Shown: in pieces, positions 1-20,540 of the stretch
Layout of the letters: every line of letters starts with the position of its first letter
Position numbering within the stretch: the first letter of the stretch is position 1
From: Lunularia cruciata
Lineage: Eukaryota; Streptophyta; Marchantiopsida; Lunulariales; Lunulariaceae
Assembly (NCBI GenBank): GCA_948567375.1
Contig: OX419757.1
Location: 26,654,732-26,718,731, forward strand
Direction: 5' to 3'
DNA: 64,000 bases
Made by a program: the position numbers and the translations under genes
Notes under the pieces: generated by a model
Databases searched by the model: none
What the model was told of the DNA's origin: nothing
The model's input: the letters and a program-made list of their open reading frames with translations, nothing else

Positions 1-1060
1 TCCGTAGCCAACTTGATTGGACGTTTTGGGTCATACCACTTCAAGATTGGTGCATGTAGCAAGGCGGCCTTCAATTCTTGAAAGGCCAACTCTTGTGCAG
101 TTCCCCATGTCCACTTCTTCTCCTTGCCAAGTAGTGTCGTTAAAGGCTGTGCAACCTTGGAGAAGTCCTTGACAAATTTACGATAGAATCCCGTCAACCC
201 CAAGAAGCTCTTAAGTTGAGTCTGATCTTCTAGTGCACTACATTTTTGAATGACCTCTATTTTATCTGTCAATACTTGAACGCCCTCTGCACTTACTCTT
301 TGCCCTAAGTAGTCTACTTTAGACTTGCCAAACTCACACTTTGAGATTTTGGCGTACAACTGATTCTATCTTAGAATCTGGAGGACCTCTTGTAGATGTT
401 GTTTGTGTTCTGTCATCGTGCTACTATATACTAAGATATCATCCAAGAAGACGATAACAGACTTCTCCAAGTATGGACAAAATATGTCATTCATTAGGCT
501 CATGAAAGTGGCAGGCGCATTGGTGAGGCCAAAAGGCATCACAAGATACTCAAAGTGGCCATACCTGGTTCGAAAGGCAGTTTTGTACACATCCTCCTCC
601 GCAATTCGGATTTGATTGTAACCGCTCCGCAAGTCCAGTTTGGTGAAGTATCTCGCTCCATGGAGTTGATCAAACAGGTCATCCATGCGAGGTAAGGGGT
701 ATTTGTTCTTCACTATTTGCTGATTGAGACCCCGATAGTCAATGCACATGCGCATTGTACCATCCTTCTTCTTCACAAACAAGACAGGAGCTCCATATGG
801 TGATACGCTAGGTTGGATGAACCCTTTCTATAGCATCTCCTCAATTTGAGTCTTACACTCCTCCAACTCATGAGGTGATAGGCAATATGGGGCCTTACAA
901 GGAGGTGTCGTCCCCGGGAGTGTCTCTATTTTGTGATCTACTCGCCTTTTAGGTGGTAATCCTGAGCATAGATCATCGGGAAAGACATCTTGAAACTCAT
1001 TCACCACATCTTTCAATTTCTCAGGAATTTGTCCAGCGATTTGTGCACTCTGGACTTCTC
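1..1060 (-). pseudogene. Reverse transcriptase region of element A pol
   Basis: The order of conserved blocks is clear on the minus strand: [56 protein letters not shown], the catalytic FLDDILVYS and, further on, the connection segment before RNase H (QELAFQELKAALLHAPIL). These are the diagnostic blocks of a Ty3/gypsy reverse transcriptase of the chromovirus type. RNase H and integrase are beyond the left edge. Confidence 0.92.
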
Positions 1061-1149
1061 TTATTAGACCCATAAAACATCTATCGGTCTTACAGATAGT
1101 TGTCGTCCCTATGACATATAGAGGCAGTTTCTGCGTGTGTGATTTTTCT

Positions 1150-1502
1150 TTAACCCCAATGATTGACCATTGGTGGGTTCTCACTACTTTCTTCCTCCAA
1201 TCCACCATTGGGTTGTACTTCTCCATCCATGGTATGCCTAAAATTGCATCATAACGGGCTAACTGTATCACTCGCCACTCAATTGCTTCCTGATATTCTC
1301 CTACAGAGAGGGTTACCCGTCTAGGTAATGATTCAATCCTCTCTGTTTGCCCATTTGGTAACTCTACTTCTTCACTTCCATCTCTCTCTAGATCCATTCC
1401 CAAGCTTATTGCAACAGAGCGAGACAAGAAATTCTCTGTTGCTCCCGGATCTATTAATACTCTCACTTGATTACCTTCTAGGATTCCATTCACAACAATC
1501 AA
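1150..1502 (-). pseudogene. Aspartic protease region of element A pol
   Basis: A retropepsin-like fold is visible: a VRVLIDPGAT-ENFLS active-site loop, then YDAILGIPWMEKYNP, which matches the second conserved block (ILGxxWL) of Ty3/gypsy proteases. In a living element this enzyme would cut the Gag-Pol polyprotein. It is followed by the linker (VVNEFQDVFPDDL) that leads into reverse transcriptase. Confidence 0.85.
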
Positions 1503-1849
1503 TTGTGAAGTTGCCTTTCGGGACCTTTGTGCATTATTCTTCTTCCTTCCCTCGCTTCTCTACTTCCTTATTGAGCCAGTAAGGCCGTGAGGTACATTTA
1601 CTGGTGATCTTTGTTTTCCAAAGTGGTTTCCACCTCCTCGTCTTCAATGTGCCTCTCCATGTTGTTCAAAGATTGCCTGTACGAAGGCCAAGGGCCTCTA
1701 GGAAAACGAGTGCGACAATTGGTAGATATGTGTCCAATACGGCCTCAATTGTAACAACGGTGTTGTTCTCCTCGAGTCCCTTCTCCTCGTGGGACTCCAT
1801 CTCTTTGTTCTTCTACCGTCCCCGCTCTCCTTGAAGCGACCGTGCTCCT

Positions 1850-2615
1850 CGATCCTCAAAGGTTACCCAATTCCATTGGTACTGGTCCACCTATGTGTGG
1901 CATTTCTGCCCAATAATGTTGAGGTGGAACTACTCTTTCACCTCCACCTAATGCTCCGGCTATTCTCTGCGTACAAGCAATAGCTTCAAATACCGTGCGA
2001 GGGTTTTGCACCATGACTTCTTGGCAAATCCGCTCTTTCAACCCTCGTTTGAAATTGTCGAGAGCCTCTACTGGACTCATGTCGGTAATTGCGACTTGTA
2101 GATCTAGAAATGCCTCCACATACTCTTGTATGCTATTCTTCTGTCTCAATCCCCATAGTCGGGTTCAAGCCATCTGCACAGAATCCACCAATTGGAAATT
2201 CTTGAGCAATCCTTCTTGCATTGCTGTCCATGTGACCTCCCTTCTCTCTGCCAGCATGGATCGTTCCCAAGCATCATACCATGTGAGGGCTTTATCGGTC
2301 AAGTACCCACATGCAAACACGCCTGTAGCCTGCTCTGTGATCTCTGTTGAGAATAATAAAAAATATCGATTCATTCTTGAGATCCAATTCTCCACTACTC
2401 CCATCGTACGCTGCCCCTTGTAAGGCTCGATGTTGCAGGTCTTCTTCATCCGGAGTAGCAATGTGGCTTCATCGTTGATAGGGTTCGTAGGCACGGGTGC
2501 CTCTCCAAGTACTTTAGTCACAAGTACTGGGTTTTGAGACGGCTCTTCTTCTTGCATGGCTTGATCGTTCCTGAGGATCTGCACTTGACTTTGCAATGTC
2601 TCCATGGTCATCTTA
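1850..2615 (-). pseudogene. gag: gag region of element A
   Basis: Begins with a short coiled-coil stretch (METLQSQVQILRNDQ), followed by a retrotransposon gag core with the typical pattern of a small-fold segment (VVENWISRMNRYF), a LTDKALTWYDAWE block and a KNFQLVD segment. This is the usual Ty3/gypsy capsid layout that packages the element RNA in cytoplasmic particles. Closely related to the gag regions of B and E. Part of a broken fossil. Confidence 0.88.
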
Positions 2616-2713
2616 ATCTCTCAAAATTCATTCAACATCCCTTGCATTCCTTGCACCAGCTCTTGCAACTGCAGATCCATGGTTCCTGCAACACCCGATT
2701 GCTAACGTCTACT

Positions 2714-3143
2714 TCAATACAGAGTCAATATAATCACTCTGGAAGGCGCACGAACTATCGGAACTACCATTGGGACCTCAGAAGCTATCACTCGTTGATA
2801 ATACTCCTCACCAAAATTCCTAACCACAAAATCTCTAAACATCAATTTTGGCCTCACTACATAACGGATTTCTACTTGAGTGTTGAAAGGGAGAGGATTT
2901 GGGACATTCATATCCATATTATCATAATAGAATGTAGATTGTCAAATCCCACTCTCTGTCATATATCACCACAGGTAGAATCACCGGGTTTGGTGAGTTC
3001 ATCACTCTATCCATGAATTCCGCACCAAAGTGATAAACTAGCGATACTCTCATCTGCTCACGCTGGATGTACATAACCTTGATGTGGAATGGGTTTGAGA
3101 ATGGGAAGCTAGGTGCGGGAAATTGTCCCCCGGGCGCATCCAT
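2714..3143 (-). CDS. Two small leader reading frames of element A, upstream of gag
   Basis: Two short frames lie between the primer site and gag. The first (2922-3143, 73 codons) starts MDAPGGQFPAPSFPFSNPFH and the second (2714-2917, 67 codons) starts MDMNVPNPLPFNTQVEIRYV. Both have close counterparts at the same place in B (11074-11503), and the first also has one in E (54665-54865), so they are a property of the family and not chance frames. I recognise no domain. They could encode small accessory proteins, act as upstream frames controlling gag translation, or together be the relic of one longer N-terminal gag segment. Confidence 0.6.
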
Positions 3144-3270
3144 CCCATTCGCTCTCTAAAGTCCTTCCTAAGTCTAGCGATTACTCTATGTTCTCCACCT
3201 CAAATTACTCAGTTTCAGTAGTTCGTGCTATTCCAAGAGGGGTAATCCACTCTCTTGGACTAGAACACTC

Positions 3271-3282
3271 GCTCTGATACCA
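3271..3282 (-). other. Primer binding site, initiator tRNA-Met type
   Basis: The minus strand reads TGGTATCAGAGC one base inside the LTR, the standard plant tRNA-iMet primer site used by many copia and chromovirus elements. Confidence 0.92.
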
Positions 3283-3283
3283 T

Positions 3284-4048
3284 TGTAATACTCTGAGGAC
3301 AAGAGAAGAGAGAAAACACAGATTGCACACTCAAACCTTCGATGCCCCAAGGGAGCACCTTCTCTTTATTATATAGACAAAAAGGATCTCCTCCAAAGAA
3401 GCTCCACCATAGGATTAGGGACACAGATAGGTGACATGTCAGCAAGCTCCACCCTTGGATTACTTACTTGGATGGGTGACCTGTATGGTCTAGGTCCTAT
3501 CTGGTTGGTCAAACGAGCTTTGACCGGAGGGAATCTTTTAGGGAATCTTCCTGTAGGAATCTCAGAATCACATGAGTAAGGTACCATTGGAAAGCTCTTG
3601 ATGAGACAAACCAGGGGGGAGGGAAGACCAGGGATTTAGGGTTTAAGAACCAGCCTTTCCTCCGTTTGGGGGGGGGGGGATCTGCACATTTTCGAGGCTT
3701 AATTCATCCGTTTAGGCCTCCGAAATTGCCTTCAAAGATTTCAGGCATATTTTGGTTCCTACTCTATTAGTAGAAGTCCCCTTTTGGTGATACCTCTTTC
3801 TGATCTGTTTAGTCCATCATGTGTAACATCCTTCCAGATGTTACCAAACCAATTCTCACCTTTAAATCATATGTCTAGCTATTGGTTCTAAGGTTCTCAA
3901 GTCTATTTTGGTTTCTGCCCTATTTGTAGAAGTACTCTTTTGGTGATACTTCTATCTGATCTATTTTTACCATCATGTATAACATCATTCTAGATGTTAC
4001 CAAACCGAATTTCACATCTAGATCATATGGCTAACCCTTGGTATTACA
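3284..4048 (-). repeat. 5' LTR of element A (765 bp)
   Basis: The minus-strand LTR starts TGTAATACC at 4048 and ends TATTACA-type (complement of TGTAATACT) at 3284, next to the primer site. It aligns along its length with the LTRs of B and C. It contains a TATA-like TCTATATAATA near 3366-3377, a long G run (C run on the coding strand) near 3667-3680, and the family's duplicated U3 block. Confidence 0.93.
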
Positions 4049-4905
4049 GCGAGTCTCTCTACATCATGTGGCACACTTGGCCTATCGGTATCCGGAGTTA
4101 TTACCAATATCAGCAGTAAGAGGTTACCAGAAGGCCCTACCAAGAGACATTTCCTTACTAGGGGCGCATGACCCAGAGAGACATGGGCCTATTCACTTGG
4201 TGATTTTTGGATGGCCATGTCAGGGACATACACGTACGGGCCACGGTTTGGGTCTTCAGGATCCTCATTCTGGTGTGTTTTGGGAGATGTTACGGATATT
4301 ACGATATCTCCAGGTTCATCAGTCTGTTTCTCCAACTTACTTTTTGGAGAACGTTCCTTTGATGGGTGATTCTTGCATTAGAGTGGTGGCGAGTACACAT
4401 CAGCTCCATACTTGGATGGGACCTGTTGTATTGTTAGATGCAGCCAGAGTGGGATCACGGGCTCATCGTCTTTGTCTTTGGTGGATGAACCTTTTACCCA
4501 GAGAGGTTCTACAGCGTGCTTATGATAGGATTTGGTGACTAGACCACATCCTTGTTGATGATATCTTGGATGTTGGGCGTCAGTCTCAGACAGTGGTAGT
4601 GGCTGATAGGTCACGTATGGCAGTGGTGAACCTAGTTGGACAGTCTAGAGCTGCATTTCCCACACTCATGAGTTTCCCAGGCTCTCATGCTTTTCAAGAG
4701 GGAGGACCTAGACTTGTTTGGGACTCACAGTTAGAGCAATTGGTGGAACCCAATGCTGATGAGAGAGAGCGGGCGATGGGTTTTTGCACCGGTATTACCG
4801 CTGTTCCAACAGTGTTAGAGGCATCCAGACGTCAGGTGTTAGGTCAGGCTATGGACCTGAACTGTTTGACCTGGATTGTGAGCCTTGGCTTGGTAGAGCA
4901 GCATA
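4049..4905 (+). pseudogene. Cytosine-5 DNA methyltransferase domain carried by element D
   Basis: The visible part holds C5-methyltransferase motifs in canonical order. Motif IV is GWPCQGHTRTG with the catalytic cysteine in PCQ (around 4213-4245). Motif VI is LENVPLMG (around 4345). Motif VIII is RVGSRAHRLCLWWMN (around 4450-4495). A NADERERAMGF segment and motif X, RRQVLGQAMDLN, follow (around 4750-4870). The order IV-VI-VIII-X argues against the rearranged DRM class, no chromodomain of the CMT class is seen, and the AHR of motif VIII resembles DNMT3. Motif I, which binds S-adenosylmethionine, should be on the other side of element A, left of the window. It sits immediately upstream of reverse transcriptase on the same strand, so it is part of the element and not a host gene. 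Whole-family function would be to methylate DNA cytosines; the target is unknown. Confidence 0.87.
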
Positions 4906-5235
4906 GGATGGGCTTGATAGGCATCACCACTCGAACACTTGTGAGCCTTGTGCCTATCGAGACGATTCAAGCACATGCCGAGAGCGATGGACCGAGTGGA
5001 CATGGTATTCTTGGGACACATCCAGTAGCTACTAGGGAGAGTGGTCTACTTGGAGTCCATCCAGGTGAGCGTGGGCTACTTGGATTACACCCTTGGTCCA
5101 CATGGGATGCATCCAGAGGACGTGTGGAGCTTGCAGCCAGAGCGGAGGGAGTTTTTCACACAGAGGTTGGGACCTCTAGTGGTCAGGAGCATGATACTAT
5201 TGCTCCCAAGGGCCCAGTGTAGCAGCCAATCAGTA
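4906..5235 (+). other. Linker of element D with GxLGxHP repeats
   Basis: After motif X the coding sequence passes through a linker with three copies of a short motif: GILGTHP, GLLGVHP and GLLGLHP (about 5000-5095). Such repeats are absent from ordinary gypsy pol. I know no domain for them; they may be a flexible spacer or short interaction motif between methyltransferase and reverse transcriptase, or carry the polyprotein cleavage zone. Confidence 0.6.
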
Positions 5236-6090
5236 CGTCTTCCACTCCTACTACAGTTACAAAGGATACTTGGGAGCCAGATCTTGGACCCAAGCTGACT
5301 AGAGAGGAAAGACTGAGGGTTTGGAGGTTCTTGAGGAGTCACACGAGTTGTTTTGCCTTCAGTATGAAGGATTTGGGTGCTCTGAAGGGACCTGGTATAC
5401 GGATTGAGCTGACTAGCGACACACCAGTTTTCCGACGTCCTTATTGATATAGTGTTATAGAGAGGACATTGATTTAGAGCCGGAGTAGTGACCTTTTTGA
5501 GGCTGGTTTGGTGGAGATTTCACATGGAGAGTATGCATCAGGGACAGTGATGCCAGCCAAGAAAGATATGCATGGCAACTATACAAATAGGCGGATGTGT
5601 GGAGATTACTGTCCTATCAACCGACAGACCAAGGCTGATCGGTATGCCATGGCTACACCGGAGGAGATTTTTGATGTGATTGGGCATGCAAAGGTCTTTA
5701 GTACTTTGGATCTTCGAGCGGGATATCATCAGTTGCCGATCAAGGAGGAGGATAACTCCAAGATAGCATTCTGGGCTATTGACCCTCACGGCAAGGATAT
5801 GTTATATCAGTGGAGGTTCTTACCATTTGGGTTGAAGAACGCTCCTGCTGAGTTCCCGAGGGTCATGGATAGGATCCTAGTTGGATTGGATTTTGCTTGG
5901 TGCTATATTGATGACATTTTGGTTTATAACACTACTGTGGAGGAGCATGAGAGACAGTTGTTGGAGGTGTTTGAGAGGTTGAGATCTCATGGACTCAAAC
6001 TACATCCTGGGAAGTGTAGGTTCTTCCACGAGCAGGTTGAGTATTTGGGTCACACTATCTACCCCAAGGACTTGGTGTTCAGCAGACCAA
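5236..6090 (+). pseudogene. Reverse transcriptase region of element D
   Basis: Recognisable blocks in order are GNYTNRRMCGDYCPIN, a YAMATPEEIFDVI segment, FSTLDLRAGYHQLPI, WRFLPFGLKNAPAEF, the catalytic YIDDILVYN and LHPGKCRFFHEQVEYLGHTI. This is a Ty3/gypsy reverse transcriptase, but its sequence (for example the MLYQWRFLPFG block) differs clearly from the chromovirus copies A, B and C, and from the Tat/Athila-like element G. It would copy the element RNA into DNA inside the virus-like particle. Confidence 0.93.
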
Positions 6091-6760
6091 GGTGGAGGCT
6101 ATTGCACGTATTCCTTGGCCTATGGATGTGAGCAGAGTTCGAGCATTCCTTGGGTGGGCAAACTTCTATCACCGCTATGTTAGAGGATTTAGTGCCATTG
6201 CCAAGGCCTTGACAAAGCTGACCAAGCTTACACAAGAGTGGTGTTGGGGAGATGAGCAGGAGAGAGCTTTTGTAGAGCTCAAGGAGAGGTTGACATCTGC
6301 TCCTATTTTGAGGAGACCAATCAGGGGACGACCATTTCAGGTTCACATTGATTGGAGTATGTTGGAGCTTGGAGCGGTGCTCACCCAACATGATGATGAG
6401 GAGAAGGAGTTTGTGGTGGCCTATGCTAGTCGCTCCAACAATTCAGCGGAGGCAAAGTATAGTTCATATGAGGGAGAGTGCTTGGCAGCAGTTTGGGCAG
6501 TAGCACATTTCCGATGTTACCTATTTGGTAACCCCTTCACTCTCATCATTGATCATCAGCCGCTGAAGTGGTTGATGGAGTCCGACAAGCTTTTAGGGAA
6601 GCTTGCACGATGGGCTCTGATTTTACAGGAGTATGATTTCACGATTGTTCACAGACCTGGAGTGGTGAACCGTGATGCAGATGGGTTGAGTATAAACCCA
6701 TGTCCCAACCAGCAGGATCAGACCGGAGCACGTTGGCATGGTGAGATAGATGAGGAGATG
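6090..6760 (+). pseudogene. RNase H and connection region of element D
   Basis: Starts with the connection segment (RAFLGWANFYHRYVRGFS), then the RNase H core: FQVHIDWSMLELGAVLTQ, AYASRSNNSAEAKYSSYEGE, CLAAVWAVAHFRCYL, FTLIIDHQPLKWL, and ends with VHRPGVVNRDADGLS. This is the standard gypsy RNase H arrangement, which removes RNA from RNA-DNA hybrids during reverse transcription. The next 300 bases form the spacer to integrase. Confidence 0.92.
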
Positions 6761-7074
6761 GTGTCTGGTTGGCATGCATCGGCCGTTCTGTGTATATTTG
6801 CAGAGGCATTGGTGGTATCTCTCTCAATGCATACAAGAGGAGTTATTGAGGTCACAGATCTAGAGAGTGAAGATATCGGTACAGTTCAACGAGACATTCA
6901 TGATGATGTCTTAGTGATGGACTATCTTCGCATTGGTGTTGTGGGTGGCATAGTTGGGGCCAAGGAGAGAGACCGTGTTCTTCAGCAAGCCAGACGGTTC
7001 AGATTGGAGGGTAGACACCTTTTGCGTGTATGGGAGGATGGTAGTGTGCGAGTAGTACCACTTCCAGCATAGAG

Positions 7075-8194
7075 ACCACAGTTGGTCCGTCATGCTCATG
7101 AGGAGCTAGGACATTTTGGAGTAAAGCGTACATATAGCTTACTCCAGAGTCATTATTGGTGGTGCGGTATGCAGACCGAGGTATAGCAATTTGTTGCCAG
7201 ATGTGTGGTTTGTGACCGAGTTAGAGCATCATTCAATGCTCCTACGCCACAATTACACCCATTACCTATCATGGGATTGGGTTACCGTTGGAGTTTGGAC
7301 TTTGCCGGACCTTTACCGCTGACTGTGAGACATCATCGGTATGTTTTGGTGATGGTGGAGCACTTCTCCAAGTGGATTGAGTTGGTGGCACTTCTTGACA
7401 AGTCTAGTGAAGGGACAGCTTACTCGTTCTTGGATCGAGTTCTTAGTCATTTTGGTGCACCAATTGAGGTTTTGACTGATCAAGGTACAGAGTTCTTGGG
7501 GGATTTTCAGGTCTTGTGTGACAAGGCTTTGATTGATCATCGTATTACATCCCGAGATCACCCTGAGGCAGATGGCTTAGCAGAGAGAGTGGTTCAGACG
7601 GTGAAGAGAGGATTGCAAAAGTATGGTTTGCAGAGAGGCCACTTGGGAGATTGGGATCTCCAATTACCTTGGTTGGCCATGGGCTATTGGTTCAGCCGGC
7701 AAGCCTCCTTAGCATCCTTCTCTCCATACTTTCGACTCTATAGACGAGATCCAAATTTACCTGGATCCATTTGTCGAGATGCTACTATAGTTTTGGACTT
7801 GGATAATCCCAATGTATGGATGAGCGCATGTTCTCAGCGGGCAGAGATCTTTCGGAGAGTGATGCCAATGGCCTTTGAGAACTTGGCGATTGCTCAGCAT
7901 AGAGATACTTTACGCTATGCTACCATTCAAGGAGGAGGTTATAGATCCTTGATCCATCGATTTCATCCAGGCGACTATGTATATCTACAGCAGATAGCAC
8001 CGACGACACTTGATGTTTCTACAGGCCGCACTATCTTGAGAGTGCGTGAGGTTTTGCCATCTGGAGTCCTTGTGTTAGAAGGACGTGATGGTGTTGTTTG
8101 GAAGGATCATGTGTGCAATTGTGCGCCATGCCACCTCCCAAACATTGATGGTACTATGGACCCAAGCTTGGCACTTGTACGTGCAGGCTTGAGG
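7075..8194 (+). CDS. Integrase region of element D
   Basis: The N-terminal zinc-binding region is visible around 7085-7215 (HEELGHFGVKRT, then a CVVC pair). The catalytic core follows with GYRWSLDFAGPLPL (first Asp), VLTDQGTEFLGDF (second Asp) and PEADGLAERVVQTVKRGLQ (Glu). Downstream are a GPY-like segment (HPGDYVYLQQIAP, about 7966) and a variable tail that continues without interruption into the PHD finger; the open stretch runs from 7205 to 8335. The enzyme would insert the cDNA into host chromatin. No chromodomain is present, unlike B and C; the PHD finger takes its place. Confidence 0.93.
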
Positions 8195-8335
8195 TGTATG
8201 TTATGTGGCTCTTCTGGTGGAGCTGCTACTATGTTAGTGTGTGATAGCTGTTTGAGAGGATGGCATATGGCATGTATGACTCCTTCCCTCACGGTGGTTC
8301 CTCAGGGACAGTGGTTATGTCCTAGATGTACTTGA
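8195..8335 (+). CDS. C-terminal PHD finger of element D integrase
   Basis: The last 46 codons of the integrase frame form a C4HC3 zinc finger: Cys-x2-Cys, eleven residues, Cys-x2-Cys, four residues, His-x2-Cys, fourteen residues, Cys-x2-Cys. The flanking residues are typical of PHD fingers: LVCDSCLRGWHMAC, then VPQGQWLCPRC just before the stop. PHD fingers read the methylation state of histone H3 tails. At the end of an integrase this most simply suggests chromatin-guided target choice, parallel to the chromodomain of chromoviruses. All eight zinc ligands are present. Confidence 0.92.
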   Translation, partial: CMLCGSSGGAATMLVCDSCLRGWHMACMTPSLTVVPQGQWLCPRCT

Positions 8336-8504
8336 CCTATAGCTAGTTCATTCTTTATATGGTATAGATTGCAGACAGGCAACTAACGATGGGGCTCCAT
8401 AGTACCCGGCCTCCTGATCTTTGCCCATTAGAGGGTATACCATATACTCAGAGTAGATGGCTATCTGGAGTTAGAGGGACCTAACCGCCAGCTAGGGGGG
8501 CGAT
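8336..8504 (+). other. 3' untranslated region and polypurine tract of element D
   Basis: Short non-coding stretch after the PHD finger. It ends in AGGGGGGCGAT (about 8494-8504) directly before the LTR, which fits a polypurine tract priming plus-strand DNA synthesis. Confidence 0.7.
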
Positions 8505-9171
8505 TGTGGCACTTTAGAGTCTATGTATGACTTATGTGTGAGTTGTGCTTCTATAGTGTATGATGTTGACAGCGATGTATGTTGTGTAGCAATGTATATT
8601 CCCACGACAACTGTCATGCCATTTGTAGTTCCGCATCTAGTTGCTCAGACACTGGAGTTCCAGTGATAGTAGTTAGAGTTATTCTAGCAGTTTCTCAGGG
8701 ACTACTTTTTGACAGTCTGATTTGGTGTTCGGGGTACTGACTTCACAGTGGGGCCCACTATCACTTTGCACCGTTTGCACTATCGAGTGTGCCGTCAGCG
8801 GGAGCGTTAGGGTTTCAGTGCTAGCTCGAGTCCATGGAGTATAGTTTTGAAGTGAGCTCTAGAGAGCTCACTTCTGTGATGTTGAGCCTTCGAGTTCCTG
8901 GCTATGGTGGACAGAGGCCGGTGAGCGTCACTTGGATTCTCTATGCTTGAGTGGGTGTGGCTTGACTATAATCAGTGCCCAGTTGTTGGCAGTTTATAGA
9001 GTGACAGATCAAAAATTGATCTGAGTTGAGTTGAGTTGAGTTGAGAGTGGTAAGCAATCTGATTATTGTGGCACTTTAGAGTCTATGTATGACTTATGTG
9101 TGAGTTGTGCTTCTATAGTGTATGATGTTGACAATGATGTATGTTGTGTAGCAATGTATATACGCATGACA
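8505..9171 (+). repeat. 3' LTR of element D (667 bp) with internal end-repeat
   Basis: Runs from TGTGGCACTTTAG after the polypurine tract to CATGACA at 9171. The first roughly 100 bases (8505-8605) recur almost unchanged at its end (9067-9171), so the LTR has the form a-b-a. A GAGTT microsatellite lies at about 9024-9047. A reverse-oriented relative at 19965-20540 shows the same join between the b part and the second a part. Confidence 0.82.
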
Positions 9172-10207
9172 AGAGTGATGACAACACTTCAACATGACAA
9201 TCACCTACGTTGAAGGTAAGAAGCAACTTGCAGATGCATTCACTCGCATGCCAATGGCAAACAACTTGGTGGTAGAGGTTCAGATTAACCCTAAATTCTG
9301 GCTAGAGATTTTGGCGGCTAGAAAATCTGATCCACAGATTGTAGAAGAGCAATCATCCAAAGGCATCACCAGCACCCAAGGACTCACCTTTCGTGATGGC
9401 AGATTATGGATTCCAAATGTCCTAGAATTGTGCACCACCATTCTAGCGGAATGTCATGATTTTGCCATTACAAGTCATGTTGGAGTGGACAAGACCTTGG
9501 ATACAATCCAGCACCATTACTATTGGCCCAAGATGAGCAACGATGTGATGGACTATGTGCGTAGTTGCTTACTTTGTCAACAAAACAAAGCTTCTAATCA
9601 AGCTCTTGCAGAGCTCTTGCAACCTCTCCCCACTCCTACACAAGTTAGGAATAGGTGTGTATGGATCTCGTCTGTGAATTACCCAAGACCACATCAGGAT
9701 TTGACTCCATTGTGGTCTTTGTGGACCGGCTCAGCAAAATGATTCATGAATGCCCTACCACCAAGGAGGTGACCGCTCCACAACTTGCTCAATTATACTT
9801 AGATGCAGTCTTCTCTCACCATGGCTTGTCTCGAGTACTCATCACTGATAGGGGGTACTCAATTCACCAGTTTGTTTTGGAGCACCCTCTTTGGTTTCTT
9901 CAAAACCAAATTGGTCATGTTCATAGCTTACCACCCACAAACAGATGGACAAACAGAGTGGGCTAATTGCACTATTGAAGATATGTTACTCGGCTTCACC
10001 TTAGAAGAGCAAGAGAGGTGGGACACCCTACTCCCATTGGTGGAATTTGCTTACAATAATTCAGTGAATGCATCCACCCATGTCACTTTGTTCTTCCTCA
10101 TGTATGGTGAGCATCCCTTCACACCTTCCAGCTTGATGAAGATCCATCCGGTGGCTACCAAGGTCGATGCAGCCAACACATTTGTTTCTAGAATCCAACA
10201 AGGGGTG
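9172..10207 (+). mobile_element. Element C, left visible segment (RNase H end and integrase)
   Basis: Chromovirus of the A/B family on the plus strand. It begins inside RNase H at the point where D was inserted and continues through ITYVEGKKQLADAFTRMP and the integrase: a zinc-binding part with CLLCQQNKAS, core segments ELPKTTSGFDSIVVFVDRLS and YHPQTDGQTE. At 10207 it is cut by the insertion of B and resumes at 16758. Broken, with several breaks. Confidence 0.9.
10203..10207 (+). repeat. Target site duplication of element B, left copy (GGGTG)
   Basis: GGGTG directly before the LTR start TGTAATACC at 10208 matches GGGTG directly after the 3' LTR at 16758-16762. Both belong to the integrase region of C. 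Confidence 0.93.
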
Positions 10208-10933
10208 TGTAATACCCAGAGCTAGCCATATGATCTAGATGTGAAATTTGGTTTGGTAACATCTAGAATGATGTTATACATGATGGTCAAAATAGATCAG
10301 ATAGAAGTATCACCAAAAGAGTACTTCTACAAATAGGGCAGAAACCAAAATAGACTTGAGAACCTTAGAACCAATAGCTAGACATATAATTTAAAGGTGA
10401 AAATTGGTTTGGTAACATCTGGAAGGATGTTACACATGATGGACTAAACAGATCAGAAAGAGGTATCACCAAAAGGGGACCTCTACTAATAGAGTAGGAA
10501 CCAAAATATGCTTGAAATCTTTGAAGGCAATTTTGGAGGCCTAAACGGATGAATTAGGCCTCAAAAATGTGCAAATTCCACCCTCCTAATGGAGAAAGGG
10601 GTGGCTTTCCCTCGCCCTGCTTTGTCTTGTTGAGAGCTTTCCAATAGTACCTTACTCACGTGATTTTGAGATTCCTACAGGAAGATTCCCTAAAAGATTC
10701 CCTCTAGTCAAAGCTTGTTTGACCAACCAGATAGGACCTAGACCAGACATGTCACCCATCCAAGTAAGTAATCCAAGGGTGGAGCTTGCTGACATGTCAC
10801 CTATCCGTGTCCCTAATCCTATGGTGGAGATCCTCTTTGTCTATATAATAAAGAGAAGGTGCTCCCTTGGGGCATCGAATGTTTGAGTATGCAATCTGTG
10901 TTTTCTCTCTTCTCTTGTCCTTGGAGTATTACA
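10208..10933 (+). repeat. 5' LTR of element B (726 bp)
   Basis: TGTAATACC to TATTACA. The U3 contains two tandem blocks of about 156 bp (10221-10376 and 10377-10530), each with an AACATC...GATGTT palindrome and a GTATCACCAAAAG segment. The TATA-like CTATATAATA at 10841-10850 is followed by the putative transcription start and R/U5. Confidence 0.95.
10841..10850 (+). promoter_or_regulatory. TATA box in element B 5' LTR
   Basis: CTATATAATA lies 84 bases before the LTR end and is conserved in the LTRs of A, B (3'), C and E, as expected for the pol II promoter that makes the genomic RNA. Confidence 0.7.
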
Positions 10934-10934
10934 A

Positions 10935-10946
10935 TGGTATCAGAGC
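10935..10946 (+). other. Primer binding site of element B, tRNA-Met type
   Basis: TGGTATCAGAGC, one base after the LTR, complementary to the 3' end of plant initiator tRNA-Met. Confidence 0.94.
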
Positions 10947-11073
10947 GAGTGTTTTAGTCCAAGAGAGTGGATTACCCCTCTTGGAATAGCACGAACTACT
11001 GAAACTGAGTAATTTGAGGTGGAGAACATAGAGTAATCGCTAGACTTAGGAAGGAATTTAGAGAGCGGATGGG

Positions 11074-11503
11074 ATGGATGCGCCGGGAGGCCAATTTCCC
11101 GCACCTAGCTTTCCATTCTCAAACCCATTCCACATCAAGGTTATGTACATCCAGTGTGAGCAGATGAGGGTATCGCTAGTTTATCACTTTGGTGCAAAAT
11201 TCATGGACAGAGTGATGAACTCACCAAACCCGGTGATTCTACCTGTGGTGATATATGACAGAGAGTAGGATTTGACAATCTACATTGTGTTATGATAATA
11301 TGGATATGAATGTCCCAAATCCTCTTTCTTTCAACACTCAAGTAGAAATCCGTTATGTAGTGAGGCCGAAAGTGATGTTTAGAGATTTTGTGGTTAGGAA
11401 TTTTGGTGAGGAGTATTATCAACGAGTGATAGCTTCTGAGGTCCCAATGGTAGTTCCGATAGTTCATGCGCCTTCCAAAGTGATTATATTGACTCTGTAT
11501 TGA
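11074..11503 (+). CDS. Two small leader reading frames of element B
   Basis: The first (11074-11268) starts MDAPGGQFPAPSFPFSNPFH and the second (about 11285-11503) holds MDMNVPNPLSFNTQVEIRYV. They are near copies of the two frames in A, and lie between primer site and gag. No known domain is seen. Their conservation in three copies that inserted separately suggests they were translated or otherwise under constraint in the living family. Confidence 0.6.
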
Positions 11504-11536
11504 AGTAGACATTAGCAATCGAGTGTTGCAGGAACC

Positions 11537-12630
11537 ATGGATCCGCAATTGCAAGAGCTAGTGCAAGGAATGCAAGGGATGTTGAACAAATTTCGAGAGA
11601 TTAAGATGACCATGGAGACATTACAAAGTCAAGTGGAGATCCTCAGGAACGATCAAGCCATGCAAGAAGAAGAGCCGTCTCAAAACCCAATAGCTACGAT
11701 TGAAGTACTTGGAGAGGCACCAGTGCCTACAAACCCTATCAATGATGAAGCCACATTGCTACTCCGGATGAAGAAGACCTGCAACATCGAGCCTTACAAG
11801 GGGCAGCATTCGATGGGAGTAGTGGAAAATTGGATCTCAAGAATGAATCAATATTTCCGATTGTTCTCAACAGATATCACAGAGCATGTTGCAGGCGTGT
11901 TTGCATGTGGGTACTTGACCGATAAAGCACTCACATGGTATGATGCTTGGGAATGATCCATGTTGGCACAGAGAAGGGAGGTCACATGGATAGCAATGCA
12001 AGAAGGACTGCTGAAGAATTTCCAATTGGTGGATTCTGTGCAGATGGCTTGAACTCAACTATGGGGCTTGAGACAGAAGAATAACGTTCAAGAGTATGTG
12101 GAGGCTTTTTTGGATCTACAAGTTGCAATTACCGACATGAGTCCAACAGAGGCTCTTGACAATTTCAAATGAGGGTTGAAAGAGTGGATTCGCCAAGAAG
12201 TCATGGCGCAAAATCCTTGCATAGTATTTGAAGCCATTGCTTGTGCGCAGAGAATAGCAAGAGCATTAGGTGGAGGTGAAGGAGTAGCTCCACCTCAACA
12301 TTATTGGGCAGAAATGCCACACATGGGTGGACCAGTACCGATGGAATAGGGCAACCTTCGATTCCGGGATCGAGGAGCACAACTGCTTCAATGGGAGCGG
12401 GGACGGGTAGAAGAACAAAGAGATGGAGTCCCACAAGGAGAAGGGACTCAAGGAGAACAATGTTGTTGTTACAATTGTGACCGTATTGGGCACATATCTA
12501 CAAATTGTCCCACTCGTTTCCCTAGAAGCCCTCGGCCTTTGTTCAAGCAATCTTTGAACAACATGGAAAGACACATTGATGAGGAGGAGGTGGACATCAC
12601 TTCGGAAAACAAAGGTTGCCAGTAAATGTA
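11537..12630 (+). pseudogene. gag: gag region of element B
   Basis: Begins MDPQLQELVQGMQGML with a coiled-coil N-terminus, then the capsid core (VVENWISRMNQYF, LTDKALTWYDAWE). Near the end is one zinc knuckle of the CCHC type, CYNCDRIGHISTNC, at 12466-12507, which would bind the element RNA. It is the nucleocapsid and capsid precursor of the virus-like particle. Part of a broken fossil. Confidence 0.9.
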
Positions 12631-12714
12631 CCTTGCGGCCTTATTGGCTCAATAAGAAAGCAGAGAAGCGAGGGAAGGAAGAAGAATAATGCGCAATGAT
12701 CCCGAAAGGCAACC

Positions 12715-13080
12715 TCACAATTGATTGTCGTGAATGGAATCCTAGAAGGTAATCAAGTGAGAGTATTAATAGATCTGGGAGCAACAGAGAATTTCTTGTC
12801 TCGCTCTGTTGCAATAAGATTGGGAATGGATCTAAAGACAAATGGAAGTGAAGAAGTAGAGTTACCAAATGGGCAAACAAAGAGGATTGAATCATTACCT
12901 AGACGGGTAACCCTCTCTATAGGAGAATATTAGGAAGCAATTGAGTGGCGAGTGATACCGTAAGCTCGTTATGATGCAATTTTAGGCAGGCCATGGATGG
13001 AGTAGTATAACCTTATGGTAGATTGGAGGAGGAAAGTAGTGAGAACCCACCAATGGTCAATCATTGGGGTTAAAGAAAAA
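12715..13080 (+). pseudogene. Aspartic protease region of element B
   Basis: Shows the retropepsin active-site loop (VRVLIDLGAT-ENFLS) and the PNGQTKRIESLPRRVTLS strand region typical of Ty3/gypsy proteases. The later part continues to VDWRRKVVRTHQWSIIGVKE. It would process the Gag-Pol polyprotein. Confidence 0.85.
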
Positions 13081-14630
13081 TCACACAGGCAGAAACTGCC
13101 TCTATATGTTGTAGGGACGACAACTGTCTGTAAGATCAATAGATGTTTTATGGGTCTAATAAGAGAAGTCCAGAGTGCACCACTCGATGGACAAATTCCA
13201 AATAAATTGAAGGATGTGGTGGATGAGTTTCAAGATATCTTTCCTGATGATCTACCCTCAGGATTACCACCAAAAAGGCGAGTAGATCACAAAATTGAGA
13301 CACTTCCGGGGAAGACACCTCCTTGTAAGGCCCCATATCGCCTATCACCTCATGAGTTGGAGGAGTGTAAGACTCAAATTGAGGAGATGTTGCAGCAAGG
13401 GTTCATCCAACCTAGCATATCACCATATGGGCCCATGTCTTGTTTGTGAAGAAGAAGGATGGTACAATGCGCATGTGCATTGACTATCGGGTCTCAATCA
13501 GCAAACAGTGAAGAACAAATACCCCTTACCTCGCATGGATGACCTGTTTGATCAACTCCATGGAGCAAGATACTTCACCAAAGTGGACTTGCAAAGCGGT
13601 TACAATCAAATCCAAATTGCAGAGGAGGATGTGCACAAAACTGCCTTTTGAACCAGGTATGGCCACTTTGAGTATCTTGTGATGCCTTTTGGCCTCACCA
13701 ATGCACCTGCCACTTTCATGAGTCTAATGAATGACATATTTCATCCATACTTGGATAAGTCTGTTATCATCTTCTTGGATGATATCTTAGTATATAGTAG
13801 CACGATGATAGAACACAAACAACATCTACGAGAGGTCCTCCAGATTCTAAGACAGAATCAGTTGTACGCCAAAATCTCAAAGTGTGAGTTTGGCAAGTCT
13901 GAAGTAGACTACTTGGGGCATAGAGTAAGTGCAGAGGGCATTCAAGTATTGACAGATAAAATAGAGGTGCTCCAGAAGATCAGACTCAACTTAAGAGCTT
14001 CTTGGGGTTGACGGGATTCTATTGTAGATTTGTCAAGGACTTCTCCAAGGTTGCACAGCCTTTAACGGCACTACTCGGCAAGGAGAAGAAGTGGACATGG
14101 GGAACTGCACAAGAGTTGGCCTTTCAAGAATTGAAGGCCGCCTTGCTACATGCACCAATCTTGAAGTGGTATGACCCAAAACGTCCAATCAAGTTGGCTA
14201 CAGATGCATCAGGCATAGCAATAGGAGCAGTCCTACAACAAGAGTGGCATGACGGATGACATCCAATTGCATATTTATCTCAAAAGTTGTTACCAACAGA
14301 GCACAACTACCACACCATAGAACAAGAAGAGCTAGCCATTGTTCTAGCAACCAAGCATTGGAAGCACTACTTGGGCAAGAAGGGATTTGTGGTAGAGATA
14401 GACCACAAACCTCTAGTCTACCTCAAGACGCAGAAGGATCTATCTTGTCGCCAAATTTGGTGGGCAGAGTGGCGACAACGCTTCAACATGACAATCACCT
14501 ATGTGGAAGGTAAGAAGCAACTTGTAGATGCATTCACCCGCATGCCAATGGCCAAAAACTTGGTGGCAGAGGTTAAGATTAACCCTGAATTTTGGCAAGA
14601 GATTCTGGTGGCTACAAAAACTGACCCATA
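13081..14630 (+). pseudogene. Reverse transcriptase and RNase H region of element B
   Basis: Visible blocks are FQDIFPDDLPSGLPPKR, the palm segment with [12 protein letters not shown] and FLDDILVYS (about 13680-13800), [16 protein letters not shown], and the connection [17 protein letters not shown]. RNase H follows with IKLATDASGIAIGAVLQQ, YHTIEQEELAIVLATKHWKH and VEIDHKPLVYLKTQ. It ends in ITYVEGKKQLVDAFTRMP. The order and sequence are standard for plant chromoviruses. Confidence 0.94.
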
Positions 14631-14631
14631 G

Positions 14632-15560
14632 ATGGTAGAAGCACAATCATCCAAAGGTGTCACCAGTACCCAAGGACTCACCTTTCAGGATGGCAGATTA
14701 TGGATCCCAAATGTCCCAAAATTACGCACCACCATTCTAGCGAAATGTCATGATTTGGCTATTGCAGCTCATGTCGGAGTGGACAAGACCTTGGATGTAG
14801 TCAAGCGCCATTACTATTGGCCCAAGATGAGCAACGATGTGATGGACTATGTGCGTAGCTACCTACTTTGCCAACAGAACAAAGCTTCTAATCAAGCTCC
14901 TGCAGGGCTCCTTCAACCTCTCCCCACTCCTACCCAACGTTGGGAACAAGTGAGTATGGATCTCATCTGTGAATTACCCAAGACCACCTCAAGGTTTGAC
15001 TCCATTGTGGTCTTTGTGGACCGGCTCAGCAAAATGATTCATGTATGCCCTACCACTAAGGAGGTGACTGCTCCACAACTAGCTCAATTATACTTAGATG
15101 CAGTCTTTGCTCACCATGGTTTGTCTAGAGTACTCATCACTGATAGAGGCACCCAATTCACCAGCTTGTTTTGGCAAACACTCTTTGGTTTCTTCAAAAC
15201 CAAGTTGGCCATATCCATAGCTTACCACCCCCAAACAGATGGCCAAACAAAGCGAGCTAATCGCATGATTGAAGACATGTTACGCGGCTTTACCTTAGAA
15301 GAGCAAGAGAGGTGGGACACCCTATTCCCGTTGGTGGAATTTTCTTACAACAATTCAGTGAATGCATCCACGTAGGTCACTCCATTCTTCCTCATGTATG
15401 GTGAGCATCCCTTCACACCTTCTAGCTTGATGAAGATCCGTCTAGTAGCTACCAAGGTTGATGCAGTCAACACATTTGTTTCTAGAATCCAACAAGGTGT
15501 GGAGAGCGCCAAGCACATATTACAGATTGCACAAAATTGACAAAAGCATATGCTGATGCA
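14632..15560 (+). pseudogene. Integrase region of element B
   Basis: The zinc-binding N-terminus shows HDLAIAAHVGVDKTLD and CLLCQQNKAS. The catalytic core shows VSMDLICELPKTTSRFDSI (first Asp), VLITDRGTQFTSLFW (second Asp) and YHPQTDGQTKRANRMIED. It is followed by a long HPFTPSSL-type tail. The zinc and core parts lie in a 247-codon open stretch (14632-15375). Confidence 0.93.
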
Positions 15561-15565
15561 CACCG

Positions 15566-16000
15566 TTGGCACATGGAGTTCAATGTTGGGGATCAAGTGT
15601 GGCTATTGACAACCGACCTCGTTTTATTGGGCCTTTCTCGATTCTTCATCGCATTGGCGCTATGGCCTATCACCTTGAGCTACCACCACACATGAAGATC
15701 CATCCAGTGTTCCATGTCTCCTTACTACACAGGTATGCTCCCCAATCAGGCCAAGGTCATTCCACACCAGACATTCGACCTTGTCCGACACTCATTGATG
15801 GCATAGAGGAATATGAAGTGGAGCAGATTCTCCAAAAATGTATGCGTGGTACTCGCCACCCGCGGGTGGACTATCTAGTACAATGGAAAGGTTACCCCTT
15901 TTATGAAGCCACTTGGGAGCCCACTGCCAATTTGGCACATACACTTGTGTTGGTGCAAGCATTTGAGCAACAATTGCACAACGAGGACGTTGTGTCTTAA
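15566..16000 (+). CDS. Integrase C-terminus with chromodomain, element B
   Basis: The first part has the GPY-like segment RPRFIGPFSILHRIGAMAY and LPPHMKIHPVFHVSLLHRY. From about 15806 to 15970 comes a chromodomain: EVEQILQKC, DYLVQWKGYPFYEATWEP and ANL, with the aromatic and Trp-Lys-Gly-Tyr core of the family. Chromodomains of chromoviruses bind methylated H3K9 and steer insertion into heterochromatin. This defines the A/B/C/E family as chromoviruses. The frame ends at 16000, two bases before the polypurine tract proper. Confidence 0.93.
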   Translation: MAHGVQCWGSSVAIDNRPRFIGPFSILHRIGAMAYHLELPPHMKIHPVFHVSLLHRYAPQSGQGHSTPDIRPCPTLIDGIEEYEVEQILQKCMRGTRHPRVDYLVQWKGYPFYEATWEPTANLAHTLVLVQAFEQQLHNEDVVS

Positions 16001-16013
16001 AAGGAGGGAGGTC
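15999..16013 (+). other. Polypurine tract of element B
   Basis: AAAAGGAGGGAGG overlaps the stop of the chromodomain frame and lies two bases before the 3' LTR. The same tract precedes the LTR of C at 17291-17303. Confidence 0.9.
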
Positions 16014-16757
16014 TGTAATACCAAGAGCTAGCCATATGATCTAGATGTGAAATTCGGTTTGGTAACATCTAGAATGATGTTATACATGATGGTTGAAATA
16101 GATCAGATAAAAGTATCACCAAAAGAGTACTTCTACAAATAAGGCAGAAATCGAAATAGACTTGAGAACCTTAGAACCAATAGCTAGACATATGATTTAA
16201 AGGTGAGAATTGGTTTGGTAACATCTGGAAGGATATTACACATGATGGACTAAACAGATCAGAAAGAGGTATCACCAAAAGGGGACTTCTACTAATAGAG
16301 TAGGAACCAAAATATGCCTGAAATCTTTGAAGGTAATTTTGGAGGCCTAAACGGATGAATTAGGCCTTGAAAATGTGCATAGCCCCCTCCCCCCCCCCCC
16401 CGATGGAGGAGAGGTTGGCCTTCCTCCCCACTGCTTTGTCTCATCGAGAGCTTTCCAACGGTACCTTATGTGATTTTGAGATTCCTATAAGAAGATTCCC
16501 TAAAAGATTCCCTCTGGTCAAAGCTTGTTTGACCAACCAGATAGGACCTAGACTAGACATGTCACCCATCCAAGTAAGTAATCCAAGGGTGGAGCTTTTT
16601 GACATGTCACCTATTTGTGTCCCTAATTGTATGGTGGAGCTTCCTTGGAGGAGATCCTCTTTGTCTATATAATAAAGAGAAGGTGCTCCCTTGGGGCATC
16701 GAATGTTTGAGTATGCAATCTGTGTTTTCTCTCTTCTCTTGTCCTCAGAGTATTACA
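16014..16757 (+). repeat. 3' LTR of element B (744 bp)
   Basis: TGTAATACC to TATTACA; aligns with the 5' LTR throughout. It has a run of 13 or more C at about 16388-16401 where the 5' LTR has a mixed C-rich stretch. TATA-like TCTATATAATA is near 16663. Confidence 0.95.
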
Positions 16758-16762
16758 GGGTG
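16758..16762 (+). repeat. Target site duplication of element B, right copy (GGGTG)
   Basis: Matches GGGTG at 10203-10207 on the other side of B. Confidence 0.93.
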
Positions 16763-17305
16763 GAGAGCACTAAGCACAAATTACAAAATGCACAAAATTG
16801 CTTGAAGTAGTATGTTGATGCACACCATAGGCACATGGAGATCAATGTTGGGGATCAAGTGTGGCTATCGACAACCAACCTCACATTAGTGGGACCTCGT
16901 AAGCTCAGACCTCATTTTATTAGGCCTTTCTCCGTTCTCCATCGAGTTGGCGTTGTGGCCTATCACCTTGAGCTACCACCACACATGAAGATCCATGCAG
17001 TGTTCCATGTTTCCCTACTACGCAGATATGCTCCCCAATCAAGCTTGGGCAATTCCACACAAGACATTCGACCTTGTCCGACACTCGTTGATGGCAATGA
17101 GGAATAGAAGTGGAGCGTATTCTCCAAAAACACATGCATGGTACTCGTCATCTATGGGTGGATTATCTTGCCCAATGGAAAGGTTACCCCCTCTTTGAAG
17201 CAACCGGGGAACCCGCTGCCAATTTGACACATGCACCGGTGTTGGTGCAAGCATTTGAGCAACAATTGCACAATGAGGATGTTGTGTCTTAAAAGGAGGG
17301 AGGTT
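16758..17305 (+). pseudogene. Element C, right segment: integrase tail and chromodomain
   Basis: Continues C after the B insertion. Visible are QVWLSTTNLTLVGPRKLRPH, LPPHMKIHAVFHVSLLRRY and a chromodomain (WVDYLAQWKGYPLFEATGEP) at about 17105-17270, followed by the polypurine tract AAAAGGAGGGAGG. Same family as B, with more differences, as expected for the older host copy. Confidence 0.9.
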
Positions 17306-18069
17306 TGTAATACCAAGAGCTAGCCATATGATCTAGATGTGAAATTTGGTTTGGTAACATCTGGCATGATGTTATACATGATGGTCAAAATAGATCAAAT
17401 AGAAGTATCACCAAAAGGGTACTTCTACCAATAGTGCAGAAAACCAAAATAGATTTGAAAACCTTAGAACCAATAGCTAGACATATGATTTGAAGGTGAG
17501 AATTGGGTTGGTAACATCTGGAAGAATGTTACACAAGATGGATCTAATAGATAAGAAAGAGGTATCACCAAAAGGGGACTTCTACTAATAGAGTTGGAAC
17601 CAAAATATGCCTGAAATCTTTTGAAGGCAATTTTGGAGGCCTAAACGGATGAATTAGGCCTTGAAAATGTGCAAACTCCCCCCCCCCCCCCCCAATAGTT
17701 GAAAGGCTGGCCTTCCCTCCCCCTTGCTTTGTCTTGTCGAGAGCTTTCCAACGGTACTTCACCCACGTGATTATGAGATTCCTATAGGAAGATTCCCTAA
17801 AAGATTCCCTCCAGTCAAAGCTTGTTTGACCAACCAGATAGGACCAAGACCAACATGTCACCCATCCAAGTAAGTAATCCAAGGGTAGAGCTTGTTGACA
17901 TGTCACCTATCTATGTACCTAATCCTATGGTGGAGCTTCATTAGAGGAGATCCGCTTTGCCTATATAATAAAGAGAAGGTGCTCCTTTGGGGCATCGGAG
18001 TTTGAGTGTGAAAGTGTGTGTTTCTCATGGTGTGTTTCTCTTCAGGTCTCCTATCCTTGGAGTATTACA
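17306..18069 (+). repeat. 3' LTR of element C (764 bp)
   Basis: TGTAATACC to TATTACA, with the duplicated U3 block, a run of about 17 C at 17677-17693, and a TATA-like CTATATAATA near 17961. The first five bases after it, CACAT, should be C's target duplication. Confidence 0.94.
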
Positions 18070-19551: not shown

Positions 19552-19964
19552 GCTCTGTATGCATATTACCCAATACTTGGAAAGTACCAAGTAGCTTCTT
19601 AGATACTTCTAGAATATTCTTATAATTCTTGGCTAAATTTGGTCTATTTACTACTTTGTTAGTCTCAACTAACTCATCGGGAAATGCCATATTTGTACAA
19701 ATTACACCATAGTTGATGGTAGAAAACAACACTCTTTCTAGTGCAGACTTGTTGAACAATAAATAATCATCTTAATTATATCCAAAGTATGACATTGTAG
19801 GAATTACAACATTTACTCCATTATATTTCATGACAACCTATGACAATATTGTATTACATATTGGTTTGTGCATATAAGTTAACATTTTAGAACCATATAT
19901 AATATTTGTGAGAAGGTAAGAAGCACATGATATCACTTGCTTACTCATTGCATATTGAAACACT
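19552..19964. other. No feature recognised
   Basis: AT-rich sequence between the minisatellite and an LTR remnant. A 70-codon minus-strand frame (19547-19759) resembles nothing I know. Confidence 0.4.
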
Positions 19965-20540
19965 TGTTGTGTGTATATACATCACTACACAACATAGATC
20001 ATTGTCAACATCACACACTACAGAAGCACAACTCACACATAAGTCATACATGGACTCTAAAGTGCCATAGTAATCAATTTTTTCATACAACTCAAATCAC
20101 ACTCAATCAGATCAGTACTGATCTGGGACTCAATAATCTGCCAACAATTGGGTACTAAAAACAGTCAAGCCACACCCACTCTAGCTAAGAGAATTCAAGT
20201 GATGTTCATCAGCCTTTGACCACCATAGCTAGGAACTCAAAGGCTCAACATTAGAGAAGTGAGCTCTCTAGAGCTACATTTTAAAAGTGTATCCCCTAGT
20301 CTCCAACCGTAATAGTCCCACTGATGGCACACCCAATGGTGCAAACGGTGCAAGAGATAATGGGCCCCTCTATGTAGTCAATACCCCAAACACAAAATCT
20401 GACCATCAACAAGTAGTCTATGAGTAACTACCAAAATACTCCCGACTACCAACACTACCACTCCAAAGTCTAGGCAATCTAGGTGCGATACTACAAATGG
20501 TGTGACATACTATTCTTGATATACATTTTATTTGTGTAGT
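19965..20540 (-). repeat. D-family LTR remnant, reverse orientation
   Basis: The complement matches the D LTR: GGCACTTTAGAGTC, the block TGTGTGAGTTGTGCTTCT, AAGTGAGCTCTAGAGAGCTCACTTC-like sequence, and GTGGGTGTGGCTTGACT. It also shows the same join of the LTR body to a second copy of the LTR head near 20068. The far edge is indistinct. No primer site or D internal sequence follows, so it looks like a solo or partial LTR. Confidence 0.78.

Follow-up and report, generated by a model that had tools for sequence, protein, structure and literature searches.

A fragment of a cytosine DNA methyltransferase lying directly upstream of a gypsy-type reverse transcriptase raises the question of whether the enzyme is a regular part of a plant retroelement or a piece of a host gene that came to rest beside one. 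The fragment occupies positions 4049 to 4905 of the window, by which is meant the whole 64,000-nucleotide stretch of Lunularia cruciata DNA that was analyzed. The first-pass annotation had described methyltransferase motifs IV, VI, VIII and X in canonical order, on the same strand as the reverse transcriptase and inside one LTR-bounded element.

The motifs and their placement were both borne out. In the frame at 4035-4535, the fragment matches the Pfam C-5 cytosine methylase family (PF00145) with an E value of 1.2e-5, above the curated cut-off, and the motifs GWPCQGH (IV), LENV (VI), AHRLC (VIII) and LGQAMDLN (X) follow one another in canonical order. A search of 5.8 billion proteins yielded 16 relatives of this fragment with 52-67% identity, the best at E 7.2e-59, and these include a Sphagnum troendelagicum protein (65%). 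A chance motif match is ruled out by the Pfam score together with these database relatives. The C-terminal part of the domain is carried by a continuing frame (4539-5219), which has no Pfam match alone. Farther 3' on the same strand are the Pfam domains of a gypsy-type pol region, including a PHD finger that forms the C-terminal end of the integrase and was absent from the first-pass annotation. The features of the element are as follows.

4050..4535, + strand: methyltransferase with motifs IV, VI and VIII, the 5' part and motif I missing in this copy (PF00145, E 1.2e-5; relatives to E 7.2e-59)
4536..4538, + strand: in-frame TAG interrupting this copy's methyltransferase (reading frames)
4539..4905, + strand: C-terminal part of the methyltransferase with motif X (alignment to relatives; no Pfam match by itself)
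5220..5228, + strand: end of frame 1, UAG CAG CCA, a type I readthrough context (sequence)
5478..6131, + strand: reverse transcriptase (PF00078, E 3e-28)
6041..7072, + strand: RNase H and linker, in another frame (PF17917, E 2.5e-34)
7187..8194, + strand: DDE integrase and its C-terminal region (PF00665, E 1.4e-11)
8195..8332, + strand: PHD finger, C-terminus (PF00628, E 5.8e-10; PDB relatives)
8491..8503, + strand: polypurine-like tract preceding repeat A (seen in 19 of 20 copies, not in L038)
8503..8609, + strand: terminal repeat A (sequence repeats)
8612..9064, + strand: terminal repeat B, which complete copies also have at the 5' end (sequence repeats)
9065..9171, + strand: terminal repeat A', the 3' end of the element (sequence repeats)
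19960..20507, - strand: lone B-A' piece, the counterpart of a solo LTR (blastn)

The copy in the window is a decayed, dead fragment, truncated on its 5' side before motif I. A chromovirus of opposite orientation severs the element at 4048/4049, and the methyltransferase frame begins at 4049 because this chromovirus ends at 4048. The missing 5' half was not found within 4 kb to the left of the window, and the motif I region, lost from this copy, is present in 6 of the 12 relatives inspected (P0001, P0003, P0004, P0006, P0009 and P0010). Another stop lies at 5475-5477, and the reverse transcriptase and RNase H are in different reading frames. With the 5' side cut away and family ends that prove to be split direct repeats, the placement inside one LTR-bounded element is not supported.

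The surroundings hold other repeated DNA. One chromovirus family (chromodomain PF00385) is represented by several copies, nested in one another, at 1-4048 (- strand), 9172-10207 (+ strand) and 10204-18026 (+ strand), and the 3' end of the methyltransferase element at 9171 abuts a piece of another chromovirus copy. Remnants of another gypsy-type element, with RNase H and reverse transcriptase, are present at 28345-31702 (- strand). Three related stretches (23956-26373, 33418-35836 and 62037-63972) are 79-90% alike and have long open frames; no protein family was identified for them in the one frame tested (34723-35328).

The genome that was searched comprises 565.8 Mb in 74 contigs, eight of which, at 60-85 Mb each, make up about 558 of the 566 Mb. 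It contains at least 150 copies of the methyltransferase; all 150 scored matches have E values of 8.5e-93 or better and are 83-100% identical, and the count is a lower bound because the first pass had 9,956 candidates. An open frame of at least 1,400 amino acids is listed for six of the 150 matches, two of which count a TAG inside it. Every seventh match from rank 2 to rank 135 was taken as a sample of 20 copies. All 20 have the methyltransferase followed by reverse transcriptase, RNase H, integrase and PHD finger in the same order and with similar spacing, although every one was found through its methyltransferase, and copies lacking the domain could therefore be missed. Motif I (DLFGG) is present in all 20, and the CCHC knuckle, the protease motif and GWPCQGH in 19 each, L038 being the copy without these three; L027 has a deletion at the border between methyltransferase and reverse transcriptase. 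The methyltransferase part is free of stops in nine copies. With CCHC and protease motifs in 19 of 20 copies and reverse transcriptase, RNase H and integrase in all 20, the genes stand in Ty3/gypsy order, and complete copies have the layout B - gag (CCHC) - protease - methyltransferase - UAG - reverse transcriptase - RNase H - integrase - PHD - A - B - A'.

The same arrangement recurs in L002 (CADCWO010000201.1), in which gag, protease and a methyltransferase about 51% identical to that of the Lunularia family share one open frame, with reverse transcriptase, RNase H, integrase and PHD finger in the next, after a UAG. The database assigns this contig, a distant relative, to a cyanobacterial MAG from desert crust, and its two ends overlap by 127 bases, as in a circular assembly. 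Judged by its content it is a eukaryotic retroelement, the source of which would be an alga or plant. A host methyltransferase fragment placed by chance beside one retroelement copy might account for the window copy alone, truncated and interrupted by stops as it is, and this explanation retains practically no probability, having been refuted by the arrangement that all 20 sampled copies and L002 share. The first-pass annotation had envisaged that other copies might lack the domain, or that motif I might be missing from every copy; the domain, motif I and the position upstream of reverse transcriptase were instead found in 20 of 20 copies, as far as copies found through the methyltransferase can tell. 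On balance, we favor a high-copy gypsy-type family that regularly includes a DNMT3-class methyltransferase, with the window holding one decayed copy.

The class of the enzyme was assessed with a ten-row profile of the methyltransferase domain, which was searched against PDB sequences. Among the best 60 of 80 matches, DNMT3A (E 1.6e-22) and DNMT3B (1.6e-21) are the highest. DRM enzymes appear at 1.5e-12 (4onj, which we take to be tobacco DRM) and 4.6e-10 (chains named DRM2), aligned over the N-terminal half only, and other classes reach 2e-9 (HaeIII), 7e-8 (DNMT2), 1.5e-7 (HhaI) and 0.13 (DNMT1). The Cys of motif IV, the Glu-Asn of motif VI and the AHRxR of motif VIII are invariant across ten diverse relatives, in agreement with the earlier reading of AHR as a pointer to DNMT3-like enzymes. 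Motifs I, IV, VI, VIII and X are in linear order, of which the window shows IV to X and the 20 other copies and L002 supply motif I. This order and the half-length matches rule out the DRM class, as had been argued from the motifs of the window, and the E value of DNMT1 set against that of DNMT3A rules out the DNMT1 class. Thus, by sequence, the methyltransferase is nearest to DNMT3 among the C5 enzymes of known structure and belongs to the DNMT3 class, without permutation. The DNMT3 of plants (Yaari et al. 2019, PMC6453930) is of the same class and has the same linear motif order, but is described there as a host gene, whereas the enzyme here is part of a retroelement.

The idea of a vascular-plant family, or of a gymnosperm one in particular, was not supported by the relatives, and a genome of 566 Mb is much smaller than those of gymnosperms. 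Among the matches listed, the nearest that carry an organism name are bryophytes, liverworts first, together with Sphagnum, and no vascular plant is named among the matches listed in three protein searches, in a database where about three-quarters of the proteins lack an organism name. A search with the L002 open frame (8000 best candidates scored) returned at least 39 proteins, with Marchantia polymorpha, Calypogeia fissa and, weakly, Closterium as named sources, and an integrase-PHD search returned 420, with Calypogeia, Marchantia, Riccia, Sphagnum fallax and Klebsormidium nitens named among the 120 listed. In a maximum-likelihood tree of 49 methyltransferase domains and human DNMT3A, from which 8 of 57 rows of fewer than 150 residues each were omitted, the window copy falls in a 20-row clade (100/100) with liverwort and Sphagnum sequences, and L002 lies outside this clade. 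A quick integrase tree again groups the window copy with liverworts and Sphagnum and places K. nitens sequences in two other clades. Another branch of relatives (P0047, P0048, P0051 and P0053) is built differently: the methyltransferase follows RNase H and precedes integrase, and a PHD finger comes at the end. The linkage of methyltransferase to Gag is therefore not universal. In P0047 the PHD finger is itself followed by a Tudor domain of the PTM/DIR17 type, and P0052 and P0054 have the methyltransferase before integrase and PHD finger in pieces with no detected reverse transcriptase. Viral contigs scanned with single proteins gave no relative. Two weak matches were set aside, namely L001 (40% over 54 residues) and L003 (37% over 68 residues, on a Streptomyces contig).

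How the methyltransferase is produced depends on a stop codon. Frame 1 (gag-protease-methyltransferase) is closed by a UAG, beyond which the reverse transcriptase follows without a change of frame. The UAG is kept in all 19 copies that have the site, which is deleted in L027; the six bases after it fit CARYYA in 18 of these (L037 is the exception), and the frame is open over the 85 codons from UAG to reverse transcriptase in 17. CARYYA is the type I readthrough signal described for tobamoviruses (PMC5382211). In L002 the stop reads UAG CAATCA, and there is no Met in the first 116 codons beyond it. Because stop, context and open frame are kept across the copies and in L002, readthrough is likely: ribosomes would mostly stop at the UAG, yielding Gag, protease and methyltransferase in bulk, and reverse transcriptase, integrase and PHD finger would be made by readthrough. 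Relatives P0038 and P0046, which have methyltransferase and reverse transcriptase in one frame without a stop, lend some color to the view that the UAG is no readthrough signal and that the enzyme comes only from an in-frame Gag-Pol product or from re-initiation. This view is quite improbable given the retention of the UAG and its context in nearly every copy, the matching context in L002 and the long stretch there that offers no Met.

The ends of the element present another type of puzzle. At the 3' end, A-B-A' (A about 107 bp, B about 455 bp) is found in all 20 copies, with B shortened in L038, and at the 5' end B is found in 17, the exceptions being L030, L035 and L038. The family ends are thus split direct repeats, as in DIRS-type elements, and complete copies are not LTR elements. 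Split direct repeats are a feature of the DIRS, PAT and Ngaro families. These families use a tyrosine recombinase and leave no target duplication, whereas a DDE integrase and 4-bp target duplications are found here; Ty3/gypsy elements (Metaviridae) share the gene order and the short target duplication, but have long terminal repeats at both ends instead of B at the 5' end and A-B-A' at the 3' end. The duplication outside TGTC...GACA is exact in 14 of 17 copies, has one mismatch in two and two mismatches in one, while 272 mismatched flank pairings used as a control gave none identical and 19 with one mismatch. L030 lies between direct repeats of 748 bases, which contain B-A' and adjoining chromovirus sequence and are perhaps the product of unequal exchange.

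Among the copies matching the search pattern, the A/B junction reads GACA-2 nt-TGTC in 16 of 17 and GATA-2 nt-TGTC in one, and 15 of 18 copies agree in the length of the B/A' junction, L026, L032 and L034 being the exceptions. This is the pattern that a circle with two repeats, opened at A/B, would be expected to leave, and we tentatively propose a cDNA circle with two A-B repeats that is opened by integrase at this junction. It is also quite possible, if short of an even chance, that reverse transcription reproduces the split repeats directly and that linear cDNA, with no circle, is the integrase substrate. Templated synthesis would likewise give the prevailing single length at B/A', and the target duplications are ordinary, yet the polypurine-like tract precedes A and not B, the A/B junction resembles two joined element ends and the B/A' length varies in three copies. 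The combination of split direct repeats, DDE integrase and 4-bp target duplications bears on the question of circular versus linear integration of retroelements.

In 17 copies the median divergence between the 5' and 3' B repeats is 2.3% (range 0.6-8.3%), and the insertions are therefore fairly recent. The comparison of dN/dS between copies, which the first-pass annotation had proposed, places the methyltransferase (0.383 in 15 copies, 0.350 in 11) close to the reverse transcriptase (0.355, 12 copies); the pairwise values are 0.375 for RNase H (6), 0.517 for integrase (6) and 0.542 for the C-terminus with the PHD finger (15). Copies of the 20 with stops, gaps or frame shifts in a domain were left out of its estimate, an omission that lowers the ratios, and decay after insertion raises them. 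Median protein identity to L002 is 24% for gag (18 of 20 copies matched) and 43% for protease (19 of 20), and, in all 20 copies, 51% for the methyltransferase, 64% for reverse transcriptase, 74% for RNase H, 74% for integrase and 64% for the PHD finger. The methyltransferase is thus better conserved in this comparison than protease or gag.

Any action of the enzyme on its own element might be sought in mutations. Between the paired B repeats of 17 copies, 198 of 226 changes are transitions, at rates per site of 0.110 in CG, 0.100 in CHG and 0.021 in CHH. Four repeat pairs in the window with no detected methyltransferase rank the contexts in the same way (CG 0.50-0.66, CHG 0.30-0.41, CHH 0.09-0.14), and therefore no mutation trace of self-methylation specific to the methyltransferase family was found in this comparison. 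The rate of CHG relative to CG is 0.91 in the family and 0.55-0.72 in the pairs lacking the enzyme, numbers too small to build on. Decay in the repeats of this genome follows the pattern expected of methylation at CG and CHG, probably the work of host enzymes, and the self-methylation role put forward in the first-pass annotation keeps the standing of a proposal.

Self-methylation is the tentative first choice because the methyltransferase would travel with Gag and because the SymbioDIRS enzymes were reported to methylate CG de novo in yeast (de Mendoza et al. 2018, PMC5890265). The enzyme may methylate the cDNA or fresh insertion of its own element, so that copies would arrive silenced and cost the host little. 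An action mainly in trans on the host genome, by which host silencing would be diluted or redirected or insertion regions marked with the help of the PHD finger, would be in keeping with the predicted presence of the enzyme in the bulk Gag product, the many copies and a chromatin-reading domain, as judged by sequence, on the integrase. It is nevertheless unlikely, as the K. nitens methylome is reported to resemble that of land plants despite the DNMT elements of this alga (PMC5890265). A non-catalytic task such as nucleic-acid binding in the particle, with methylation secondary or lost, is doubtful to a similar degree. Motif VIII reads AHRLR in nine of the 20 copies, AHRLC in eight and AHH in three, so that its second Arg, or the His-Arg before it, is altered in 11, and Cys is frequent in stop-free copies too. 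The yeast test of KnitGypsy-Dnmt3 likewise showed no activity, a result that its authors call inconclusive (PMC5890265). Against such a task stand the catalytic residues of motifs IV, VI and VIII, invariant in the ten diverse relatives.

The PHD finger offers a further clue. The integrase frame of the window element has no Chromo match and carries the PHD finger in its place, the nearest solved relatives of which include CHD4, KMT2C/D, DPF2/3, ATXR5, KDM5B and PHF21A (best 60 of 106). Many of these bind H3 unmethylated at K4. By analogy with what has been proposed for chromodomains, it has a nearly even chance of aiding the choice of insertion sites by reading histone H3 tails. In plant chromoviruses, too, the integrase of a gypsy-type pol ends in a histone-reading domain, a function that in the element here is predicted from sequence, but theirs is a chromodomain and not a PHD finger. 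Host DNMT3 couples an ADD reader to its catalytic domain, for which the PHD finger and the Gag-linked methyltransferase of the element are a proposed analog. It would be a long shot that all of these parts form a read-and-write chromatin kit, in which the PHD finger would read H3 tails and the Gag-linked DNMT3 would methylate incoming DNA, combined with a circle of two repeats that integrase would open at an internal palindrome, a DIRS-like route joined to DDE integration.

The element is a land-plant branch of a known kind, the gypsy elements with DNMT3. KnitGypsy-Dnmt3 of Klebsormidium nitens is described as a gypsy-type element whose DNMT3-related domain keeps its motifs in unrearranged order and whose repeats, according to a figure legend, follow the DIRS arrangement (PMC5890265). 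It belongs to an alga and has fewer copies than the elements of Symbiodinium, whereas at least 150 copies occur in the land plant here; its authors place the DNMT in the Pol frame, whereas the enzyme here is in the gag-protease frame before the UAG; and the term PHD does not appear in the main text of that report, whereas a PHD finger ends the integrase here (PMC5890265). Two K. nitens proteins with integrase and PHD finger, P0064 and P0098, are among the 120 of 420 listed and may or may not belong to KnitGypsy-Dnmt3; no K. nitens methyltransferase sequence was found, and the comparison with this alga was made through the integrase-PHD proteins. SymbioDIRS-Dnmt3 and SymbioLINE-Dnmt of dinoflagellates are likewise retroelements with a cytosine methyltransferase, but are reported as unrelated captures by the DIRS and LINE classes (PMC5890265), whereas the element here is of the gypsy type.

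In the literature examined, no description was found of the PHD finger, the readthrough layout, target duplications with split repeats or high copy number in a land plant, and the open PMC literature yielded no report of an element of this kind from any land plant, liverworts and mosses included. One mosquito paper in which the terms PHD finger, Ty3 and integrase meet deals with a host gene located close to an insertion. The occurrence in land plants contradicts one published statement. It extends retroelements that encode a cytosine methyltransferase, so far described from algae and dinoflagellates, to land plants, with high copy number, recent insertions and proteins in Marchantia, Calypogeia and Sphagnum. 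Because methylomes can be measured and genes removed in these three genera, a benefit of self-methylation to the element can be put to the test. One count, by comparison with Arabidopsis, gives Marchantia five methyltransferases in three classes and makes no mention of DNMT3 (PMC5784723). Lastly, the chromodomain of the neighboring chromovirus appears to keep the three aromatic residues of group I, and group I chromodomains have been reported in land plants from mosses and lycophytes (PMC3350952).
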